Made by a program: the position numbers and the translations under genes | Shown: positions 647 to 61,649 of the stretch, in pieces | Position numbering within the stretch: position 1 is the stretch's first letter | Layout: every line of letters starts with the position of its first letter | Notes under the pieces: model-generated | Seen by the model: the letters and a program-made list of their open reading frames with translations, nothing else | Databases searched by the model: none | Told to the model about the DNA's origin: nothing | Origin: Tidjanibacter massiliensis | Lineage (GTDB): Bacteria; Bacteroidota; Bacteroidia; Bacteroidales; Rikenellaceae | Assembly: GCF_900104605.1 (NCBI RefSeq) | Contig: NZ_LT629960.1 | Location: 992,001-1,056,000 of the forward strand | Direction: 5' to 3' | DNA length: 64,000 bases

Positions 647-1549
647 ATGAAAAAAGCAACCATCGCCGCAGCGCTCATGCTCGCGGCACTGCCGCTCGCC
701 GCACAGCAGACGGGCGTTCGGGTAACCGCCCGCAATGCAGCAGACAATTCGCTGGCATTCGACGCCGCCATAACAGGATACGGCACCTTCACCATCCGCC
801 TGGCCGTCGCCGACATTCGCAACCATGCGGGAGACGACGCCCTCACGGTCACCGTCACCACCGGCAACGAAGGGGGCGAAATTCTTTCGATCGCTCCGCA
901 GGATGCCGCCCGACCCGTGACCGCCGACTTCTCATGGGACTGGATTAACGGAACGCTCGATGCCACGCCCGACCTCGGGTTCATCTACCGGCTGCCGATA
1001 GCCGCAGGAAAGAGCACGGCGGTGCGCTCGCTCACTCCTGCCGAAGCGGGGATGATGCGCGACAACATCGCCGATTTCCGCATGTGGGAGTTCGCCATGG
1101 AGCGGAACGAACCGGTATTTGCCATCCGAAAAGGGACGGTCATCCATGTAGAGGGCTACGACGCGGAGAACGGACAGGCAGGCGGCGGTACGATTATCGT
1201 CGAACATGCCGACGGGACGCAGGCACGCTATGCCTCGCTCCGCAGCGGTTCAGCCCTGGTCGCCCCGGGCGATACAATTTTTCCCGACACCCCGATAGCA
1301 CTGGCAGGCGAACTGCGCAGCGGAGGTTACGGTGTACAGGTAGGCCTGTACCGTTATGCCTCCAACCGCAACACCGCCCTCTATCCCCACATGATGGCCC
1401 AGACGGAGTTCATCAATCCCCTCTTCATGACCGCGACGGGCAACGGTCTGCTCACCGACGGTCAGCGGGCGACGGCCAAAACGACGAAAAAACTGTTGGA
1501 TGCCGAATCGGGCCGAACGAGTTTCTGGGAACGGGTATTCGGCCGCTGA
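647..1549 (+). CDS. exported M23/LytM-fold protein, probably catalytically inactive
   Basis: A 300-residue protein starting at ATG 647. The frame stays open upstream to 602, but the 647 start gives a clean signal peptide (MKKATIAAALMLAALPLAAQ), so I chose it. The C-terminal half has the M23 peptidase outline: GTVIHVEGYD, then GGGTIIVEHADG, YASLRSG, and an ending like the HxH region, GYGVQVGLYRY. In active M23 enzymes that last strand carries an HxH zinc motif; here it reads Q-V-G, and the first zinc-ligand H/D pair is also not evident. I infer a non-catalytic periplasmic peptidoglycan-associated domain or a regulator of other hydrolases. The 16-base gap after rlmD could allow co-transcription. 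Confidence 0.7.
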   Translation: MKKATIAAALMLAALPLAAQQTGVRVTARNAADNSLAFDAAITGYGTFTIRLAVADIRNHAGDDALTVTVTTGNEGGEILSIAPQDAARPVTADFSWDWINGTLDATPDLGFIYRLPIAAGKSTAVRSLTPAEAGMMRDNIADFRMWEFAMERNEPVFAIRKGTVIHVEGYDAENGQAGGGTIIVEHADGTQARYASLRSGSALVAPGDTIFPDTPIALAGELRSGGYGVQVGLYRYASNRNTALYPHMMAQTEFINPLFMTATGNGLLTDGQRATAKTTKKLLDAESGRTSFWERVFGR

Positions 1550-1562
1550 TGCAAAAGAAGCT

Positions 1563-2669
1563 CTATGAGCGGTCCCGATAGACCGCCGTGATTTCCCGGA
1601 AGAAGTGTTCGTAAGAGAGTGCTTCTTCCGCTTTTTTACGGGCGGCCGCCCCGAGCAACTCCCGCAGCTCCCTGTTCCGTATCAGTCCGCGCAGAGCCGC
1701 CGCCAAAGCCTCCGCATCGGAAGGCGGAATCAGTATGCCGTCCGTACCGGAAGCGACGAACTCCGGCTGGGCCCCGTTGTCGGTGGTAATCACTGCCCGG
1801 CCGGCCTGCATGAATTCGAGCACCGTAAGCCCGAAAGCCTCCTGCCCGACTGTCGGGACTACCCCAATATCGACCTGGCGCATAAACTGCGGCACATCGT
1901 CCAGAAAGCCCGTAAAAACGACCTTTCCGTCCAGGCCCAGCGCTTTCGCCCGGTCGCGAAGTCTCTGCTCATAGACCGGTTCTCCCTGCCCTGCGACCAA
2001 AAGTACGAAATCCTCCGACTTCAGCAGTGCAGCCGCATCAAGCAGCACCTCCACCCCCTTCTCCGGATGGAGACGGCCCGCATAAGCGACGACGACCGTA
2101 TCGGGCGGAATACCGTACCGCTGCCTCAGAACGACACCTCCGGTCTGCAGACGGCAGGGCGGAATACTATTGTGAATGACCGTCACGCTCCGCGCCGCTA
2201 TCTTCGGCGAAGAGGAGAGGAATACACGCCTGGCAAGTTCGGAGACGAAGACAATCCGGTCCGTCCGCCGGTACAGGTAGGAGTAGAGAAAATTCCTCTT
2301 CGCCGGCCGGACCAGGTGGCGCGTAAGGATAACCTTCGGTTTCCGGTCGGAAAGGGCACGGGCAAAGAGCGCAATGAAAGTATCCTTGAACTGATGGGTA
2401 TGGACGATATCGGCCTCGACGGATTCGATGAGCCGCTTCATCTTCAGGATGGAACGGAGACCGAAACGGCTGCGGAGCGGAAACTGCACGAGCGGACACC
2501 CCAGCGAAGCGGTTTTCCGGCGGATGACTTCGCTTTCGCGCGATACCAACTGCACGCCGTAGCCCTCCCTCTGCAATCTTTCCGCCAGGTCGTAGACGTA
2601 CTGTTCGCCTCCGCCCCAGCCGGCCGAGGCGAAGACCTGCACAACGGTTTGTTTTCCCCGCTCAGTCAT
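1563..2669 (-). CDS. glycosyltransferase family 4 (GT-B fold)
   Basis: A 368-residue cytoplasmic glycosyltransferase. The N-terminus has a glycine-rich acceptor loop (SAGWGGGEQYVYDLAERL). The C-terminal half has the GT4 nucleotide-sugar site: AGRLHPEKGVEVLLDA, then the E-x7-E motif in QEAFGLTVLEFMQAG. Known role of the family: transfer of a hexose from an NDP- or GDP-sugar to a lipid or glycan acceptor, typically in LPS core, O-antigen or capsule synthesis. The start lies 9 bases from the end of the GT2 gene on the same strand, so the two are almost certainly co-transcribed and act on one glycan. Donor and acceptor cannot be read from the sequence. Confidence 0.88.
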   Translation of the reverse strand: MTERGKQTVVQVFASAGWGGGEQYVYDLAERLQREGYGVQLVSRESEVIRRKTASLGCPLVQFPLRSRFGLRSILKMKRLIESVEADIVHTHQFKDTFIALFARALSDRKPKVILTRHLVRPAKRNFLYSYLYRRTDRIVFVSELARRVFLSSSPKIAARSVTVIHNSIPPCRLQTGGVVLRQRYGIPPDTVVVAYAGRLHPEKGVEVLLDAAALLKSEDFVLLVAGQGEPVYEQRLRDRAKALGLDGKVVFTGFLDDVPQFMRQVDIGVVPTVGQEAFGLTVLEFMQAGRAVITTDNGAQPEFVASGTDGILIPPSDAEALAAALRGLIRNRELRELLGAAARKKAEEALSYEHFFREITAVYRDRS

Positions 2670-2678
2670 ACCCGCGGA

Positions 2679-3527
2679 CTATTCGGTGGTCTCCCGGACG
2701 ATTCCGTACGGCGTCCGTCCTACCCGGTTCCGGGTATTCTCCTCGTACAGAATCCGATTCGCCTCGTTATGGATGTCCAGCCGCCTGTGCTTCTTATGGT
2801 ACACCGTGGCGTAATGGTTCATGACGAGCGGGCGGATACCGAGACGCACCAGCCGGTCTTCCAAATCGGTATCCTCGCCGGTTCCGGGATTTACATACCG
2901 TTCGTCGAACCCGTTGGCCTTGAGAAGGTCGGATTTGTACATGGAGAAATTACACCCCAATATCCCCTCGTAACGCTGGCGGATGAACCACCGACGCAAG
3001 GTCGGGGAGGTAATCCGGATACAGTTCTCCATATGTTTCTCTCCGCGCACGATGCCGGCATAGAGCAACGGCCACACCAATTTCCGCTCGAATCCCGGAG
3101 AAGCTACCTTCCCGACACTCATTCCCTCGGAGAGAACGGCCGGCAGGTCTACCCTCCGGCCGGCGACGACGAACCCTTCCCGCCGCGCCTTGCAGTGTTC
3201 CTCGACGAATTTCCGGTGCGGGATACAGTCGCCGTCCAGGAAAATCAGGTACTCCGTCCGACTCTGCACCACCGCCTTGTTGAGCATCCGGTTCTTGCGA
3301 AACCCGCAGTCCTCCTGCCAGAGATGAGTGACGGGAAAAGGTTGTCGGGCCATCAGCTCCTCCAGCCGGGCGACCACATCCTCCCGCGAACCGTCGTCCG
3401 CCACGATGACCTCGAAATCCTTAAAGGTCTGTTTCCCCAAAGCGACGAAAATCATCTCCAGCCAATCGATGCCGTTATAAAAAGGGATGATTATCGAAAC
3501 TGCCGTTTTTGCATCCATTGCGTCCAT
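2679..3527 (-). CDS. glycosyltransferase family 2 with galactosyltransferase-type C-terminus
   Basis: A GT-A protein of 282 residues from ATG 3527 (3518 is an equally good second start; the frame is open to 3599 but the -7 promoter element at 3543-3550 excludes that). Motifs: VSIIIPFYNG at the N-terminus, VIVADDGS, the DxD-type metal site FLDGDCIPH, and GTGEDTDLEDR near the C-terminus, which resembles the Glyco_transf_7C domain of galactosyl- and chondroitin-polymerase-like enzymes. It heads the two-gene glycosyltransferase operon with the downstream GT4 gene. A role in surface glycan synthesis is inferred. Confidence 0.87.
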   Translation of the reverse strand: MDAMDAKTAVSIIIPFYNGIDWLEMIFVALGKQTFKDFEVIVADDGSREDVVARLEELMARQPFPVTHLWQEDCGFRKNRMLNKAVVQSRTEYLIFLDGDCIPHRKFVEEHCKARREGFVVAGRRVDLPAVLSEGMSVGKVASPGFERKLVWPLLYAGIVRGEKHMENCIRITSPTLRRWFIRQRYEGILGCNFSMYKSDLLKANGFDERYVNPGTGEDTDLEDRLVRLGIRPLVMNHYATVYHKKHRRLDIHNEANRILYEENTRNRVGRTPYGIVRETTE

Positions 3528-50350: not shown

Positions 50351-51052
50351 CTAAATATCCCAGGAAGGATTCTCCATCAACGGTTCCGTAATAGCCAACG
50401 CATCATTGCCTGCAATATTTATCCTGAAATCGAGAACGCCGGCATAATACGGCGAATCCGTATCGCTCAGGTCGTAATAGTCTATGCTGACAATATCCTT
50501 AGCGGTGGCAAGCTCGCACAGCTTCTCATACTCGGCACTGTACATGATATATCCATTGAACAGGATACGCACATCCGCTCCGTTTTCATCGGTAAAGAAA
50601 CCGTCCTCGTAGACGATACCGGGAATATGTCCATACACATCCTCTATGGTGACGGCATCGGGGGCAATCTCTGCCGGAACGTACATGGCCACCGGCATCA
50701 ACATCCCCGCGTCCGGCGTGCGTTCCAGCGCGATATTATAGGTGCGGTTCAACCGAACAGTCGCATCATATCGGGGCTTTATCTTTTTCGTCACCGTTTC
50801 GCAGCCCGGTGCAGTAACCTTCAGGAGATAGACCCGGTCCATCTCGACATTGCCGAAGTCGTACCAACCATTGACAGAGGTGAACGCCGCATACTCCGAT
50901 TCTCCCGTCTGCGGATCCAGCAGCCAGACCGAAGCAAATGGCATGGCTTGCATCGTACCGCGGATAAACACATGCCCCGTTACCCACTGCTCGCGCGCCC
51001 CGGCAAACACGGCGCCGCCTAAAAACAAGAAAAACAAGATGAGTTTTTTCAT
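50351..51052 (-). CDS. exported carboxypeptidase-regulatory + plug-like protein without barrel, copy 1
   Basis: 233 residues. Signal peptide [20 protein letters not shown]. Residues about 22-110 form a carboxypeptidase-regulatory-like beta-sandwich (VTGHVFIRGTMQAMPFASVW, YDFGNVEMDRVYLLKVTAPG). Residues about 115-215 resemble the plug of TonB-dependent receptors (VTIEDVYGHIPGIVYEDGFF, VRILFNGYIMYSAEYEKLCE, IVSIDYYDLSDTDSPYYAGV). It stops where a barrel would begin, with no frameshift visible, and the end PSWDI is conserved as WDI in copy 2. So it looks like a real short protein, not a truncated receptor. A decoy, regulator or partner of the receptor downstream is inferred only. Confidence 0.78.
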   Translation of the reverse strand: MKKLILFFLFLGGAVFAGAREQWVTGHVFIRGTMQAMPFASVWLLDPQTGESEYAAFTSVNGWYDFGNVEMDRVYLLKVTAPGCETVTKKIKPRYDATVRLNRTYNIALERTPDAGMLMPVAMYVPAEIAPDAVTIEDVYGHIPGIVYEDGFFTDENGADVRILFNGYIMYSAEYEKLCELATAKDIVSIDYYDLSDTDSPYYAGVLDFRINIAGNDALAITEPLMENPSWDI

Positions 51053-51292: not shown

Positions 51293-51994
51293 CTAAATAT
51301 CCCAGAAAGTACTTTCAATTGGGAGCTCCGTATTTTCAGGTCCGTCGCTGATCACGATGTTCACTCTGAAATCGAGAACGCCGGCATAATACGGCGAATC
51401 CGTATCGCTCAGGTCGTAATAGTCTATGCTGACAATATCCTTAGCGGTCACAAGCTCGCACAGCTCCTCATATGAACTGCTGTACATGACATATCCATTG
51501 AATAGGATACGTACATTCGCTCCGTTTGCGTCGGTAAAGAAACCGTCCTCATAAATGACTCCGGGAATATGTCCATACACATCCTCTATGGTAACGGCAT
51601 CGGGGGCAATCTCTGCCGGAACGTACATGGTCGCCGGCATCAACATCCCCGCGTCCGGCGTGCGCTCCAGCGCGATATTGTAGGTGATGTTCGGTTGAAC
51701 ATTCGCATCATATCGGGGTTTTATCTTTTTCGTCACCGTTTCGCAGCCCGGCGCAGTAACCTTCAAAAGATAGGCCCGGTCCATCTCGACATTGCCGAAG
51801 TCGTACCAACCGTCTACGGAGGTAAACGCCGCATATTCAGGCTCTCCCGTCTGCGGGTCCAGCAACCAGACCGAAGCGAATGGCATGGCTTGCATCGTAC
51901 CGCAGATAAACACATGCCCCGTTACCCACTGCTCGCGCGCCCCGGCAAACACGGCGCCGCCTAAAAACAAGAAAAGCAACAAGAGTTTTCGCAT
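51293..51994 (-). CDS. exported carboxypeptidase-regulatory + plug-like protein without barrel, copy 2
   Basis: 233 residues, a paralogue of the gene at 50351-51052 with the same domain order and length. Differences are spread through the protein but concentrated in the last 20 residues (GPENTELPIESTFWDI here). Signal peptide [20 protein letters not shown]; the first Cys (CGTMQ) is Arg in copy 1. The near-identical 44-base segment at 51922-51965 also reappears inside ugd as part of an assembly artefact. Function unknown. Confidence 0.78.
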   Translation of the reverse strand: MRKLLLLFLFLGGAVFAGAREQWVTGHVFICGTMQAMPFASVWLLDPQTGEPEYAAFTSVDGWYDFGNVEMDRAYLLKVTAPGCETVTKKIKPRYDANVQPNITYNIALERTPDAGMLMPATMYVPAEIAPDAVTIEDVYGHIPGVIYEDGFFTDANGANVRILFNGYVMYSSSYEELCELVTAKDIVSIDYYDLSDTDSPYYAGVLDFRVNIVISDGPENTELPIESTFWDI

Positions 51995-55325: not shown

Positions 55326-56710
55326 TCATCTGCGTCCGATGGAACAGTATGCAAATCCCTTGGCAGCAAGCTCTTCGCCGTTGTATATATTACGCCCGTC
55401 GAATACCACGGGCGTCCTCATGGCTTTCCGCACGGCACACCAGTCGGGCATGCGAAACTCCTGCCACTCGGTAACCAGCATCAGGGCATCGGCCCCCTCC
55501 GCCGCTTCGTACTTATCCCGGCAATAGCGGACACCGTCACCGAGAATGCGGCGTGCCTCCTCCGATGCAACCGGGTCGTAGGCACAAACCTCGCATCCGG
55601 CACGAAGCAGGTGTTCAATGATGACCACCGAAGGCGCTTCGCGCATGTCGTCGGTCTCCGGTTTGAACGAAAGGCCCCATACGGCCACCCGCCGACCGGC
55701 GATGTCGCCGCGGAAGTAATCCCTGAACTTCTCGAAGAGCAACCGTTTCTGCGCCCCGTTAACCTCTTCGACCGCCCGCAGCACCTTCATGTCGTACCCG
55801 TTGCTGCGCGCCGTATTCACCAGCGCCTTCACATCCTTCGGGAAACAGCTTCCGCCGTAACCGATGCCCGGGTAGAGGAACTTCGGCCCGATACGCGGGT
55901 CGGCTCCCATCCCCTGACGCACCATATCGACATCCGCACCGAGCCTCTCGCACAGATTGGCGATGTCGTTCATGAAGGAGATACGCGTGGCAAGCATGGC
56001 ATTCGAAGCGTATTTTATCATTTCGGCCGAAGGAATATCGGTGAAAAGCAGCAAACGCCCGTTCTCGATAAACGGCTTGTACAACCGCTCCATAATCGTG
56101 CGGGCCCGGCCGCTGTCGACGCCGACCACCACCCGGTCGGGTTCCATGAAGTCCTTGATGGCCGCCCCCTCCTTGAGGAATTCGGGATTGGAAGCGACGT
56201 CGAACTCCACATTCATCCCCCGTTGGTCAAGCTCTCTGCGGATGGCCGCCCGCACCAGTTCGCCCGTTCCGACCGGAACGGTACTTTTGGTTACGAAAAG
56301 CGTATATCCGCCGATATGACGCCCGACCGTGCGGGCCACTTCGAGCACGTACTGCAAATCCGCACTGCCGTCTTCGCCGGGAGGGGTACCCACCGCACAC
56401 ACGATGACGTCGTAATCGTCTATCCCTGTCTCTTATACACACTTACCCACTGCTCGCGCGCCCCGGCAAACACGGCGCCGCCTAAATCTATCCCCTGCGA
56501 AAGGTCGGTTCCGAAACGGAGCCGCCCCGCCTGTACGTTGCGCAACACCATCTCCTCCAGGCCCGGTTCGTATATCGGAATCACCCCGCGGCGCAGTTCC
56601 TCTATCTTCCGTTCGTTGATGTCGATGCAGGTGACGTTCACCCCCATGTCGGCGAAACAGGTTCCCGACACGAGCCCGACATACCCGGTTCCCACTATGG
56701 CTAAATTCAT
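55326..56710 (-). CDS. ugd: UDP-glucose 6-dehydrogenase, interrupted by a 68-base assembly artefact
   Basis: Starts at ATG 56710 ([20 protein letters not shown], Rossmann NAD site) and should continue to 55326 with the catalytic Cys in [16 protein letters not shown]. As written, the frame breaks near 56425 because 68 foreign bases (56426-56493) are inserted. Deleting them restores [19 protein letters not shown] and one frame of 438 residues, normal for the family. Known reaction: UDP-glucose to UDP-glucuronate with two NAD+, for surface polysaccharides. In the genome the gene is very probably intact. Confidence 0.9.
56426..56493. other. Nextera/Tn5 mosaic-end adapter chimera (assembly artefact)
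   Basis: Bases 56426-56441 are the first 16 bases of the Tn5 mosaic-end adapter used in Nextera libraries (CTGTCTCTTATACACA). Bases 56443-56486 are identical to 50980-51023 and 51922-51965, the signal-peptide region of the barrel-less receptor genes. Bases 56487-56493 duplicate the 7 bases before the insertion. No second mosaic end is present, so it is not a transposon. The resulting peptides (VSVYKRQ and MCIRDR) are familiar adapter-derived strings in metagenomic protein sets. Confidence 0.95.
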
Positions 56711-57375: not shown

Positions 57376-60300
57376 ATGAAACTGCTGCGCGCAATGTTCG
57401 TTATCGCATTCTCGCTGTCGGTCGTCGCTACTGCCTCGGCACGACATGCCGACGGTGATACCCAACCGTGTCCGACATGCGAAAAAATCTACGATTATCT
57501 CTATCGCATAAGTGTGGAGCCGAATACGGCCGCGCAGATGGATTTGCCGAATTTCGTCTCGCAGCTCGACCGGACGCATCTGCTCGATTTCGCCACAGGA
57601 ATATCTTTCAAACTAACCGACTGTATAGACAATATATCGCCGAAGGTGATTCGCGACCACTATCTGCCGTGCATGGCCGTCACGGTGAAGCGAATGGCCG
57701 AGGAGGAGATATTCAAGCAAATGGCCATGGGGCGCGATTTGTTGGTGAATCGATATCTGTCGCAGTATCTGCCCGATGAATCCGTCGGCAGCATGCTTTA
57801 TAATTTCTGCCAGTTGGCGTACCATATGGGTAATTACATTTTATATAAGGAAGAGGCTACCGTAGCCGGGTTTAAAAATTACGGTTATAATAATCTGCAT
57901 TATATCGAATATACGCTGTATGGCGACGATACCTATATGCAGGATATCGACCCTTGGCCGGAGGAATTGTTTGTGAGGCTGTATAATCGTTTTCGTGTTT
58001 ATTATCAGGGCGACTATACTGAAAGGCCCGAATTCATAATATGCAATGCGGTAGCAAACGCCTATAATGCCGAACAATACGAACTCATAGCGGACTGTAC
58101 TCGTGAGCTTACGAAATTAATGTTGTATATACTGCCGCCTTATATGCAAGAGTGGCTTGGAAATATATTAAATCAGGCCGCAGGTCGAGTGAACCGAGAA
58201 CGCGAACGGTTCGACATCTATAAAGAAGAATGTACGGATAGATTCGGAACGACGGAGGCGTTCGACCTCATGTATGCTTCTGTGATGACAAGATACAACA
58301 GCATCGATTTACAGTATATAACTGATTTCTTGGCGTATTGCAAAGAATTGCGGGAAGCAGGATATATGTTTGCCGGCCATTTGCCGGGATTGTGTCCTGA
58401 GGACTCTGTCAATGAAGATAATTACGATACGTACGTGCAATACTGTATCGAATGTGCAAAGATGCTTCGCGATGTTTGGACAGCCATATCATTGACAATA
58501 TGGACGCCAGACTCTATTTCGCAATTCAAATCCATGCTCGAAAATTTCGGATGCGAAAACGAAGAGGTATTCGTGATGGTATCTCTTAATCTTGCCAACA
58601 TGATATTCTTCTATGGCGATACCGCCTTGGCTCTCGATATAATAGAACCGGCATTGGCCTATTATGATAATATTTACAAGAGCATTGTTCCGTATCCTCT
58701 CGCGGATATTGCAATCATATACACTCTGTTGGGAAATCATGTCCAAGCCCGTAAAATACTCGATAATTACGTTTTGCCATATATCGAGACTTGCGAGTAT
58801 AACGACGAGTCATTTTTATCTCCCGATCTGATATGTACGGCACAATGCGCAGCAGTACTCGCCGAGTGTGAGCAAAAGGAGCTGGCTACCGCTTTGGCGG
58901 ATAAGGCTTTTTCGATGGTTAATCGATTGCAGAACGATGAAGATAAAGCTATTGTATCGGGTTTGATATGCGATGTATATTATGTACAGGAGCATTATGA
59001 GAAATCGTTAGAGGTATTGAATCTCGCCATACAATGCAATCCGTCGGATGACTTTAAAATATTATCCAATCTTAGGGTAGCCGAAACACATTTTAGAACA
59101 CAGGATTGGAGGCCTGCCATCGAAATATATAAGACCTACGCCGAGCGATGTTCGGAGTTTTGCGACCCCACATTTTTCTTAGAAATGATGTCTTGCGCCG
59201 CACATGCCGGTGACACGGAGTGTATGCGCGATACGGCCGAGAAATATACGGAAGGGATAAAAGCCGAGATAGATGACAAACTCTACAATCTGTCGTCGGA
59301 GGAGCGCGAGAGTTTTTACGGCAGAATAGCGGACAGCAACTTTTTTATGGAGATATGCGAGGCCGCCCGCGGCAACGAGGAGCAGAACGCCATACTGGCC
59401 TCCTGCGTATACGATTACAGCCTTATGATGAAGGGGCTGCTGCTGAGTGCCGACAACCGCGTAGACAGGCTGCTTACCGAGCACCCCGATTCTATCGTGC
59501 GCGTGCGCTATGCCCAGATGAAGAATCTGGCGGCACGGCTTGATAACATGACTATGCGCGGCAGCGACCCCTCGCATGTGGCGACTATGCGCGAAGCCTT
59601 GAAAACCGCGCAGCGCGACATCATCATGGCTGTACGCCGCATGGGCATCGAAACCGATTTTGCCGGCGGACATACGGTCGGCTGGCGCGAGGTGCAGAGC
59701 AGGTTGAACGAGCACGATGCGGCCGTAGAGTTCATGCGGCTGACCGGCGGAGAGGACAAGAAAGCCGATCCATTGTATGTCGCCGTCATGCTGCGCAGTG
59801 GCTGGGAATCGCCGCGAATCGTGGAGCTGTGCCGCGAATCGGTGCTGCGCGACTACGTCAAGAATGACCAGCTCAAAAACAGGCGGCTGTACAATACGCC
59901 GGAGGCATGGCAGCTATGGCCGCTGATATGGCAGCCCTTGCAGGAGTATCTATCGGAGGGCGAGACCGTATATTTCTCGGTGGACGGTGTAATGAACATG
60001 TTGAATATCGGTGCCTTCAGACCGCAAGGCGAAGACCGGCGCACAGCCGACGAGCGATATACGCTGCGGAGATTGTCATCGACGCGCGAGTTGTGTATCG
60101 GACGAGAAGCACACGAGATGAAACGAGCTGTGATATACGGCGGACTGAATTACGACATGGGGACCGATGCCATGGCCCGAGCGACGAGCGAATATCGCGA
60201 TACCGATCTGGCGGCCTCGCGTACCGTGTCGCGCGGATCATTATCATTGGCAGAGGGAATGCTGCCCGATGAAAATATTTACAGCGAGACATACCATGAA

Positions 60301-60876
60301 GCCGTAAATATTGCCGAAATGCTGAGGTCCTGCGGTGTAGAGCCCGATTTGAAGACAGACGATTCGGGTGTGGAGGAGTCGTTCAAGGCACTCTCCGGCC
60401 GGCAATTCGAGCTACTTCACATAGCCACCCACGGATTCTATATGCCCGGACACACCGAGTATCAGACATCGGAAGAGCTGTTATCGCCGATGATGCGCTC
60501 GGGATTGAGGCTATCGCGCAAGAAAACACTCTCGGCCGACGACCGCGAGGACGGCCTGCTGCTGGCACGCGAAATAGCCGACATGGATCTCTCGGCGGTC
60601 GATCTGGTCGTACTGTCGGCCTGCCAGACTGCTCTGGGCGACCTCTCGGGCAACGAGATTTTCGGTCTGCAACGAGGGTTCAAGCAGGCCGGCGTCGGAA
60701 CTATTGTCATGACTCTATGGCAGATAGACAGTCAGATGGCTCAATATATGATGACGGAGTTCTACAACAACCTGACCGTCGGCATGGAACGGCACGAAGC
60801 GTTCCGAGATGCACAGGCCAAAACCAAAAATGCATATCCCGACAAGGATTGGGCGGCATTCATCATGTTGGATTAA
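57376..60876 (+). CDS. large exported TPR-CHAT (caspase-like) protein
   Basis: 1166 residues. A signal peptide (MKLLRAMFVIAFSLSVVATASA) points to export. Residues about 50-700 are helical with TPR-like repeats (LADIAIIYTLLGNHVQARKI, SLEVLNLAIQCNPSD and others). Residues about 700-850 look like a helical linker. Residues about 860-1166 are a CHAT domain with an intact catalytic dyad: His1019 in LLHIATHGFY and Cys1083 in LVVLSACQTALGDLSG, followed by the typical GLQRGFKQAGVGTIVMTLWQ. CHAT domains are cysteine peptidases related to caspase and separase. The next gene, 32 bases on, encodes a small exported protein and is probably its partner. GC is about 42-43 percent in two lines of the TPR half but about 60 percent in the CHAT half. 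Confidence 0.88.
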   Translation: MKLLRAMFVIAFSLSVVATASARHADGDTQPCPTCEKIYDYLYRISVEPNTAAQMDLPNFVSQLDRTHLLDFATGISFKLTDCIDNISPKVIRDHYLPCMAVTVKRMAEEEIFKQMAMGRDLLVNRYLSQYLPDESVGSMLYNFCQLAYHMGNYILYKEEATVAGFKNYGYNNLHYIEYTLYGDDTYMQDIDPWPEELFVRLYNRFRVYYQGDYTERPEFIICNAVANAYNAEQYELIADCTRELTKLMLYILPPYMQEWLGNILNQAAGRVNRERERFDIYKEECTDRFGTTEAFDLMYASVMTRYNSIDLQYITDFLAYCKELREAGYMFAGHLPGLCPEDSVNEDNYDTYVQYCIECAKMLRDVWTAISLTIWTPDSISQFKSMLENFGCENEEVFVMVSLNLANMIFFYGDTALALDIIEPALAYYDNIYKSIVPYPLADIAIIYTLLGNHVQARKILDNYVLPYIETCEYNDESFLSPDLICTAQCAAVLAECEQKELATALADKAFSMVNRLQNDEDKAIVSGLICDVYYVQEHYEKSLEVLNLAIQCNPSDDFKILSNLRVAETHFRTQDWRPAIEIYKTYAERCSEFCDPTFFLEMMSCAAHAGDTECMRDTAEKYTEGIKAEIDDKLYNLSSEERESFYGRIADSNFFMEICEAARGNEEQNAILASCVYDYSLMMKGLLLSADNRVDRLLTEHPDSIVRVRYAQMKNLAARLDNMTMRGSDPSHVATMREALKTAQRDIIMAVRRMGIETDFAGGHTVGWREVQSRLNEHDAAVEFMRLTGGEDKKADPLYVAVMLRSGWESPRIVELCRESVLRDYVKNDQLKNRRLYNTPEAWQLWPLIWQPLQEYLSEGETVYFSVDGVMNMLNIGAFRPQGEDRRTADERYTLRRLSSTRELCIGREAHEMKRAVIYGGLNYDMGTDAMARATSEYRDTDLAASRTVSRGSLSLAEGMLPDENIYSETYHEAVNIAEMLRSCGVEPDLKTDDSGVEESFKALSGRQFELLHIATHGFYMPGHTEYQTSEELLSPMMRSGLRLSRKKTLSADDREDGLLLAREIADMDLSAVDLVVLSACQTALGDLSGNEIFGLQRGFKQAGVGTIVMTLWQIDSQMAQYMMTEFYNNLTVGMERHEAFRDAQAKTKNAYPDKDWAAFIMLD

Positions 60877-60908
60877 TCCTTTTTGTTTAACTTAAATAAA
60901 TTTAAATT

Positions 60909-61577
60909 ATGAAAAAAATCCTTTTGACATTGGCACTCGTTGCCGCTGCGCAATTTACGTTCGCACAGGAGAAGACGGACGATGCCAAACAGCCTGCAAG
61001 CGAACTGATGACGCAGTTGCGTCTGGCATCGGACCTGGCCAGATACGGTTACGAAACCTACTCGGCATCGGCTCTGATTGAGGCGGCACGCATTCTGAAC
61101 GGCGTACCTACGTACGAACTGACGCCAGAGTCATTCATCAAGGGCGAGGGGACGGCCGACGGCAAGGCCCAGAAAACCGAGTTCTCGGTAGAGCAACTGC
61201 TGAAAGATGCCCGAGCGTATGCCGACGGCAATGCCACGCTGCTTGCATTAGCCGACCAAGTGAAGATTGATAACGGCACAAGCCGCGGCCGCGTGGGCGG
61301 AGCAGCGGTACATGAGGACTGCGTATACGCCAACTGTACCGATAACTATACAATCCGCTTTATTGCCGGGGAAGAGGCCGAAGTGGCCGTTGTGGGCGAC
61401 GGTGATACCGACCTGGATCTCTACATCTACGATTCAAACGGCAATCTCATCGAGAAAGACGATGACTATACCGACACCTGCTATTGCAGTTGGACACCGA
61501 AATGGACGGGAGCATTCACAATCAAGATTAAGAATCGTGGCGGTGTTTGCAATTATTATACATTGTACACCAATTGA
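60909..61577 (+). CDS. small exported protein: helical N-domain, linker, PPC-like C-domain (putative CHAT partner)
   Basis: 222 residues. Signal peptide MKKILLTLALVAAAQFTFAQ. Residues about 28-120 are helical (ASELMTQLRLASDLARYGYE, SALIEAARILNGVPTY, VEQLLKDARAYADGNATLLA). Residues 126-140 form a Gly/Arg-rich linker (GTSRGRVGGAAVHED). Residues about 141-222 are a PPC-like beta-sandwich (EEAEVAVVGDGDTDLDLYIY, DSNGNLIEKDD, WTPKWTGAFTIKIKNRGG) with acidic loops suited to calcium and two or more cysteine pairs. Starting 32 bases after the CHAT gene and ending at a terminator, it is almost certainly co-transcribed. I infer a substrate or targeting subunit; the linker is a possible cleavage site. 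Confidence 0.8.
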   Translation: MKKILLTLALVAAAQFTFAQEKTDDAKQPASELMTQLRLASDLARYGYETYSASALIEAARILNGVPTYELTPESFIKGEGTADGKAQKTEFSVEQLLKDARAYADGNATLLALADQVKIDNGTSRGRVGGAAVHEDCVYANCTDNYTIRFIAGEEAEVAVVGDGDTDLDLYIYDSNGNLIEKDDDYTDTCYCSWTPKWTGAFTIKIKNRGGVCNYYTLYTN

Positions 61578-61595
61578 GCCTATAATTCATTGAGA

Positions 61596-61627
61596 AAAAA
61601 GGGCTTCCCGCAAGGAAAGCCCTTTTT
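61596..61627. terminator. bidirectional terminator after the CHAT operon
   Basis: Eleven-base arms (61596-61606 and 61617-61627), A-rich on the 5' side and T-rich on the 3' side, with TTTTTCTTT following on the plus strand and a matching A tract on the other side. It serves the CHAT operon on the plus strand and the aminotransferase gene (stop at 61650) on the minus strand. Confidence 0.88.
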
Positions 61628-61649
61628 CTTTCATTCGGTCCGCAGCAAC

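Follow-up and report, generated by a model that had tools for sequence, protein, structure and literature searches.

A small exported protein, P, recurs beside exported caspase-type proteases and may belong to a proteolytic module of the bacterial envelope

In this study we discuss two adjacent genes in a stretch of 64,000 nucleotides (hereafter the window) from Tidjanibacter massiliensis (RefSeq assembly GCF_900104605.1, contig NZ_LT629960.1, positions 992,001 to 1,056,000), which encode an exported TPR-CHAT peptidase and a small exported partner, here named P. On the whole, relatives of P recur beside exported caspase-type proteases of the CHAT or the C14 family, which suggests a little-known proteolytic signalling module in the bacterial envelope. 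The window pair is predicted to be a minimal copy of this widespread extracytoplasmic module, with P as its dedicated substrate cut at an Arg/Lys-Gly step of the linker, and we consider the chances of this prediction to be evenly balanced. The association is directed, from P to CHAT or C14 and not the reverse.

The neighbours of the P family are the main evidence. An alignment of ten P proteins was searched against genome contigs, and the best 80 loci among the 166 relatives were examined, with CHAT and C14 genes called by models of our own. Of the 80 loci, 68 have a CHAT or C14 gene no more than 5 kb from P, as do 41 of the 45 that have 5 kb of sequence on both sides; in 39 of the 80 such a gene directly adjoins P. 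P shares its strand with the nearest CHAT in 51 of 53 cases and with the nearest C14 in 34 of 41. The share of CHAT and C14 among all genes is 68/310 at less than 2 kb from P, then 20/186, 17/185 and 10/188 in successive 2-kb steps, and 2/149 at 8 kb or more (Fisher p 6e-11 for the innermost class against the outermost, with genes treated as independent). The count of 68 is a lower bound, an adjacent C14 in L154 having been detected by Pfam and missed by our C14 model, and the Pfam scan having covered only part of the neighbours in the remaining loci that lack a match. Pfam families were also counted for 105 near genes, taken from the 180 within two genes of P, on the same strand and closer than 2.5 kb (genes above 1300 residues excluded), and they include 18 Trypsin_2, 14 C14 and 11 CHAT; none of the three ranks among the 25 families most often met in 105 far genes, taken from the 188 lying more than 7 kb from P on either strand, of which at least one (in L135) is a CHAT by our own models.

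The initial annotation had raised the question of how often the two proteins are neighbours across phyla, and P is found with CHAT or C14 in Bacteroidota, Pseudomonadota, Spirochaetota and Cyanobacteriota. Nine of the 11 loci outside Bacteroidota have one of these peptidase genes in the stretch; they belong to Pseudomonadota, Spirochaetota and one cyanobacterium, and in three of them (L193, L199 and L200) the C14 is on the opposite strand, 1.9-3.3 kb from P. Our models find neither CHAT nor C14 in the two loci from Gemmatimonadota. In one of these (L182, 5467-9651) a GGDEF-AAA-HEAT protein adjoins P, and in L188 the neighbour of P shares 69% identity with this protein over the last 718 residues. 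A further protease class is met in L196, where P adjoins a TPR protein carrying a retropepsin-like aspartyl protease domain (1070-3127). Plasmid relatives of P, which are excluded from the 80-locus counts, occur in Pseudosulfitobacter and Sinorhizobium with 32-34% identity and 83-98% coverage. At E 0.01, 46 of the 49 plasmid records that contain P come from Pseudosulfitobacter, and we count these 46 as no more than one or two lineages. In this genus P stands in a row of genes for a caspase, a serine protease, a long TPR protein, P itself and CHAT; in S. meliloti a caspase gene is flanked by two copies of P.

In the window the two genes lie on the same strand with 32 bases between them (Table 1), and the coordinates, CHAT domain and dyad residues given for them by the initial annotation are all confirmed. 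The AlphaFold2 model of P (predicted local distance difference test (pLDDT) 86.0; predicted template modelling score (pTM) 0.77) has a signal peptide, four helices, a disordered linker and a beta-sandwich. By sequence, the sandwich matches the PPC profile PF04151 weakly, with 18.1 bits under the cut-off of 25.9, though by fold the PPC-like domain named earlier is recovered, the best match being the C-terminal domain of Tk-SP (3afg; Z 12.3, 93 residues, root-mean-square deviation (rmsd) 2.0), with collagenase domains (3jqw, Z 11.2; 5sv5, Z 10.2) and PliG (Z 10.3) also among the matches. GOLD domains score near the PPC domains in the same fold search, and therefore PPC-like is the safe wording. 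These matches cover the PPC-like part of P and leave the helical domain uncovered. In the family a core GDGDTDLDLY is almost invariant, and the window P, with its helical domain, its [R/K]G linker step and its PPC-like domain with a core of this type, is a member of the family. PPC domains are well known as accessory parts of secreted peptidases, where they usually lie within the protease chain; P shares their fold in its C-terminal domain, but carries it on a separate small protein and under the Pfam cut-off. The terminator that had been proposed for both genes is found downstream of P as a stable hairpin, one that a simple terminator-pattern scan did not list.

Table 1. Features of the gene pair, with positions counted from the first letter of the window
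Feature	Coordinates	Strand	Description
Exported TPR-CHAT peptidase	57376..60876	+	1166 residues; signal peptide (by eye), alpha-solenoid ~33-757, CHAT ~770-1166, His1019/Cys1083
Partner P	60909..61577	+	222 residues; signal peptide (by eye), helical ~32-117, disordered linker ~118-131, PPC-like beta-sandwich 133-221
Codons of Arg126-Gly127 of P	61284..61289	+	candidate cleavage site in the disordered linker, from conservation and low pLDDT
Intrinsic terminator downstream of P	61591..61633	+	hairpin -21.3 kcal/mol, z -3.84

The linker of P is where a cut is proposed. In an alignment of 78 P proteins, made from the best-80 set with an extra copy (L127) and the window P added and with four near duplicates (L146, L161, L189 and L202) and three plasmid rows omitted, residue 127 is Gly in all 78, and residue 126 is basic in 75 (Arg 70, Lys 5) and Leu in the other three. 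The preceding residues 120-125 are variable and partly gapped, and 126-128 is the one place in the model of P where at least three consecutive residues have pLDDT below 50. Seven more P proteins outside the alignment, read by eye, have Arg-Gly in six and His-Gly in one, and three of the seven retain Arg-Gly despite a changed downstream motif. As to the three loci with Leu126, there is no C14 or trypsin-like gene in the stretch, two of them being cut by contig ends. Judged by its conservation, the Arg/Lys-Gly step looks like a protease site and is taken as a candidate, and it favours the putative role of substrate among the three that had been suggested for P, namely substrate, activator and surface anchor.

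In the window CHAT protein, PF12770 (CHAT) covers residues 844-1164 with E 1.9e-43 and 149.4 bits against a cut-off of 24, and both residues of the His/Cys dyad are present. The TPR-like repeats that had been noted are weak by sequence (TPR_12, E 1.9e-5, 25.2 bits, under the cut-off of 30.1) and appear as the alpha-solenoid in the AlphaFold2 model (pLDDT 78.8, pTM 0.66), where a helix at residues 2-19, followed by a low-confidence stretch, reads as the signal peptide. The closest structure is the TPR-CHAT protein of Craspase (8eey_B; Z 21.5, 622 residues, rmsd 6.6), after which come separase, DdvA, gingipains and a metacaspase. Single-sequence searches with the CHAT protein gave no match in the genome contigs or in PDB, while the alignment-based search with P did match; neither window protein matches any family of PADLOC-DB 2023. 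Across the families, the His/Cys dyad is kept in all 68 C-terminally complete CHATs, the window protein included, and an H..C motif in all 41 complete C14s.

Export of both window proteins, which the initial annotation had read from their N-termini, is again seen by eye from the translations, and for the relatives we applied a crude rule based on hydrophobicity. It finds a hydrophobic segment at the N-terminus in 59 of 71 CHATs, 41 of 43 C14s and 77 of 84 P proteins, several of the failures looking by eye like wrong start calls or true signal peptides. A lipobox-like motif is seen in 13 of the 78 aligned P proteins, and each of the remaining 65 has a hydrophobic segment resembling a signal; with export-like N-termini in all of them, P therefore appears to be extracytoplasmic throughout the family, as predicted from these segments.

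It is of interest to ask which enzyme would cut P, and it need not be the local CHAT. In metacaspases the residue two before the catalytic Cys is part of the S1 pocket. This residue is Asp in 35 of the 39 C14s beside P that a pattern could read, the remaining four being F in three loci, probably from the pattern catching the wrong Cys, and E in one; it is Ser in 67 of 68 CHATs. The basic P1 residue of the putative cut suits the specificity of C14 caspases better, orthocaspases being described as cleaving after positively charged residues (PMC6426788). Elsewhere in the host genome there is an exported protein of the C14 caspase family with a DAC motif (G000:C8:1121763-1122431; L204, 460-2202), which is a possible enzyme for the P linker. 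As another candidate for an Arg-specific enzyme, the trypsin-like proteases of the operons were considered and judged less likely than C14, as 21 of 34 have Pro six before the Ser of the GNSGGP motif, which we take to be HtrA-like and not trypsin-like; nine of the 34 are unreadable at this position, and in the four that remain it is occupied by S, T, L and D.

The unit around P is wider than the pair of the initial annotation, from which the conserved association stands, with the two genes adjacent in two Alistipes genomes, while C14, trypsin-like proteases and sometimes sigma factor genes have to be added. Trypsin-like proteases occur in 31 of the 80 loci, sigma factors of the extracytoplasmic function (ECF) group in 14, anti-sigma-like genes in 15, and the latter two together in 13. 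For 14 anti-sigma-like proteins the inner segment was measured, and 12 have a mean hydropathy of at least 1.9, the exceptions being those of L139 (1.4) and L155 (0.9). Gene calls in G+C-rich loci are rough. As an example of order, L139 has a trypsin-like protease with MORN repeats, P, CHAT, CHAT, C14, sigma and anti-sigma. Another full operon is L180 of Parabacteroides distasonis An897, with P, two CHATs, sigma, anti-sigma and C14. In L160, L161 and L177 a gene of one cluster, SIR2-like in its L160 representative, lies between P and CHAT. Compared with PADLOC, the genes near P in the other loci hit generic models for caspases, proteases and SIR2, besides a small number of named systems, several of these in single members. 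We also observe, by eye, five loci without P (L039, L040, L045, L050 and L051) in which a CHAT lies beside ECF sigma-like and/or anti-sigma-like genes.

Taken together as a mechanism, a change in the envelope would be sensed by the solenoid of the CHAT protein and unlock the protease; P, as the dedicated substrate of the module, would then be cut by CHAT or C14 at Arg/Lys-Gly in the disordered linker, and with the cut its helical and PPC-like domains would come apart, which would pass the signal on. At loci with ECF sigma and anti-sigma genes the same proteolysis might lead to a transcriptional response. The substrate role of P is thus our leading candidate, as yet unproved. The broader proposal, that exported CHAT and C14 proteases cutting P at Arg/Lys-Gly make up a system of envelope signalling or defence that is widespread and as yet undescribed, an extracytoplasmic counterpart of Csx29-Csx30-sigma which at some loci reports through an ECF sigma and anti-sigma pair, is put forward tentatively, as one that we would sooner doubt than assert. 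For most exported caspase homologues of bacteria we know of no substrate; the P family tracks these homologues across phyla, and its conserved candidate cut site makes it a concrete putative one. If true, caspase-type proteolysis would be tied to envelope sensing and, in some loci, to ECF sigma signalling.

Several observations weigh against the substrate reading. Cutting at a conserved R-G is not known CHAT behaviour, and R126-G127 could be structural instead, as the step borders the sandwich. P1 is basic in all 38 loci that have C14 and in 35 of the 38 that lack it (raw counts by our own models), so that there is no clear tie to C14. Covariation between the CHAT S1 pocket and P1 was considered and rejected: E975 is changed, to Met975, only in L157, where P1 is Leu, and two further loci contradict the idea, with Phe975 and Arg at P1 in L219 and Glu975 and His at P1 in L220, while E975 is also present in all 22 CHATs lacking P. 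By our own models 12 of the 80 loci lack both CHAT and C14 (11 after the Pfam match in L154); most are cut by contig ends, and L174, L182, L188 and L192 have full flanks. The hypothesis of a plain pair, taken from Bacteroidales relatives of the CHAT protein, was rejected, since P is absent from all 20 of their stretches, and most sampled TPR-CHATs occur without P. In the window itself our models find no C14, trypsin-like, sigma or anti-sigma gene; the exported C14 sits elsewhere in the host genome, and the nearest of its eight Sigma70_r2 genes (Pfam) is about 394 kb from the pair.

The occurrence among relatives of the host is sporadic. The host genome has one CHAT gene and one P gene, and 22 other genomes of the genus, within a sample of 100 relatives, have no match to either protein. 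In a survey of 268 genomes of the family, CHAT is matched in 19 and P in 19 at E 0.01, with full length in six, these being the window genome and five of the sister genus Alistipes (the five are also counted within the 80 loci). CHAT is present in 5 of the 6 genomes with full-length P against 14 of the 262 others (Fisher p 6e-6, or 7e-5 without the window genome). In two of the Alistipes genomes (G263 and G225) the pair is adjacent with a comparable short spacer, the identity to the window being 58 and 61% for CHAT and 84 and 73% for P respectively. A third (G200) has CHAT, a 202-residue exported protein and P, and the remaining two (G219 and G172) have P with a relative of this 202-residue protein at contig ends, where adjacency to CHAT cannot be judged. 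This patchy distribution suggests gain by transfer or repeated loss. At higher ranks P is found in 8 of 393 Bacteroidales genomes and in 5 of 395 Bacteroidota genomes, the window genome included in both, and two of the latter five match the PPC-like part only. Nine other full-length carriers come from these samples, and six have a CHAT or C14 in the stretch; the three misses are L214 (a 5.3-kb contig), L217 (a 12.8-kb contig) and L218 (P at the contig edge), and L215, L216 and L217 repeat L197, L194 and L181 of the 80-locus set. In addition, P appears mosaic when the window is compared with L101 and L102: the helical domains are 83-88% identical across all three, while the PPC-like domain of the window P (60909-61577) is 90% identical to one of the two and 65% to the other, as if swapped, and in the CHAT protein divergence is faster in the middle of the solenoid than in the CHAT domain. 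PPC domains of the P type are also observed in the sister genus apart from P itself, twice in a protein that is kinase-like by eye (L112, 6771-8453) and in short PPC-only proteins of 123-146 residues with signal-like starts (L106-L111, L113 and L114).

Among the other explanations, the one that survives best takes P as an adaptor or anchor, with the PPC-like domain binding a surface or ligand, the helical domain docking onto the peptidase and holding it in the envelope, and R-G as a structural joint. The lipobox-like motif in 13 of 78 P proteins, the almost invariant core, the presence of PPC-like folds in secreted proteases and collagen-binding domains, and the re-use of PPC-type domains in short exported proteins and the kinase-like protein all agree with it; but R-G is conserved within the least confident stretch of the model, and persists in the P proteins of L219 and L227 (by eye) though their VGGP motif and sandwich core have changed, and we hold this explanation to be possible but unlikely. 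A role as inhibitor or chaperone of the exported caspase-fold peptidases, removed on triggering in the manner of securin and separase, appears improbable: P is linked to peptidases with intact catalytic residues, the export of an active protease presumably calls for control, and the sandwich resembles PliG, a periplasmic lysozyme inhibitor, but this likeness is common to many sandwich proteins, and many loci have several CHAT or C14 genes with a single P. That these are ordinary secreted proteases of housekeeping or nutrition, clustered by chance with P as an accessory domain protein, is very improbable, for the accessory use of PPC domains and the many Bacteroidales TPR-CHATs without P are outweighed by the sporadic occurrence of P, its plasmid copies, and the ECF sigma and anti-sigma company, the SIR2-like cluster in three loci and the multi-protease operons, which look like signalling or conflict modules.

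Two of the known systems close to this module are Craspase and DdvA, and the module is possibly a relative of their logic. The first is the type III-E CRISPR Craspase, the CASP module with Csx29, Csx30 and CASP-sigma, in which the TPR-CHAT protein Csx29 cleaves Csx30, an inhibitor of an ECF sigma factor, which in the authors' model is thereby freed (PMC10028731). The likeness lies in a TPR-solenoid CHAT protease with a dedicated neighbour and in the ECF sigma genes of some P loci, while the Craspase TPR-CHAT is cytoplasmic and the window proteins carry export signals, and the architecture of P is unlike that of the Craspase partner. The known Craspase sites, A|S, L|D and M|K, are non-conserved (PMC11106740), whereas the putative site of P is conserved, and therefore the parallel is in logic and not in site. 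P has no match to a Csx30-like family, and Csx30 is not among the fold matches listed, with no direct comparison made; no open reading frame in 50-64 kb of the window reads as Cas7-11 by eye, with no search made for Cas7-11 or a CRISPR array. Possibly the TPR-CHAT module linked to CRISPR is a cytoplasmic form of this logic that was captured.

The second parallel is DdvA of Myxococcus xanthus, named in PDB as a transmembrane anti-sigma factor and CHAT domain-containing protein (8rot, 8rw5), which matches the window CHAT protein with Z 18.2 over 478 residues (rmsd 11.1) and, by sequence profile, only with E 0.061. Here the TPR-CHAT fold is on a membrane-spanning protein, whose CHAT domain, from the title and domain order, would face the periplasm. 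Its cognate ECF sigma factor, for which DdvA is the anti-sigma, is DdvS, and as of 2015 it was not known which signal inactivates DdvA (PMC4374960); in Myxococcus an anti-phage island is under the control of DdvS (PMC12288465). Unlike DdvA, which has the anti-sigma function on its own chain, the window CHAT protein is soluble, exported and without it: only CHAT and weak TPR profile matches are found on the chain, no anti-sigma domain, and helix 2-19 reads as signal peptide. In the P loci sigma and anti-sigma are separate genes. The initial annotation had taken the layout as a candidate for an undescribed one, and this stands in so far as the titles and abstract beginnings of the openly licensed literature hold no description of P or of its association with exported CHAT and C14, but DdvA is a precedent for a membrane-linked TPR-CHAT.

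Other reports touch on the same neighbourhoods. C14 caspase homologues beside sigma factor genes, one group having an N-terminal helix that is possibly a signal peptide, were described in 2012 (PMC3501461), but the passages considered mention no P-type partner and the term PPC is absent from the text of that paper. EACC2 caspases lie near ECF sigma and TPR genes (PMC8195603), but the words Periplasm and signal peptide are absent from its text. ECF54 sigma factors are found near CHAT proteins (PMC8999054). No P-type partner is present in the excerpts of the PNAS paper on diversified sensors (PMC10907252) or of the B. fragilis paper (PMC11854122).

Two further observations concern the window upstream of the pair. 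Two very similar 233-residue proteins with signal-like starts (by eye) are encoded in tandem on the - strand (50351-51052 and 51293-51994). About 0.9 kb upstream of the CHAT gene, an exact 16-base match to a sequencing adapter, presumably Nextera, lies at 56426-56441 (-) inside a UDP-glucose dehydrogenase-like gene (55326-56710), accompanied by a piece resembling the start of the two paralogues; the reading frame of the gene is split, and the insertion is probably an assembly artefact.

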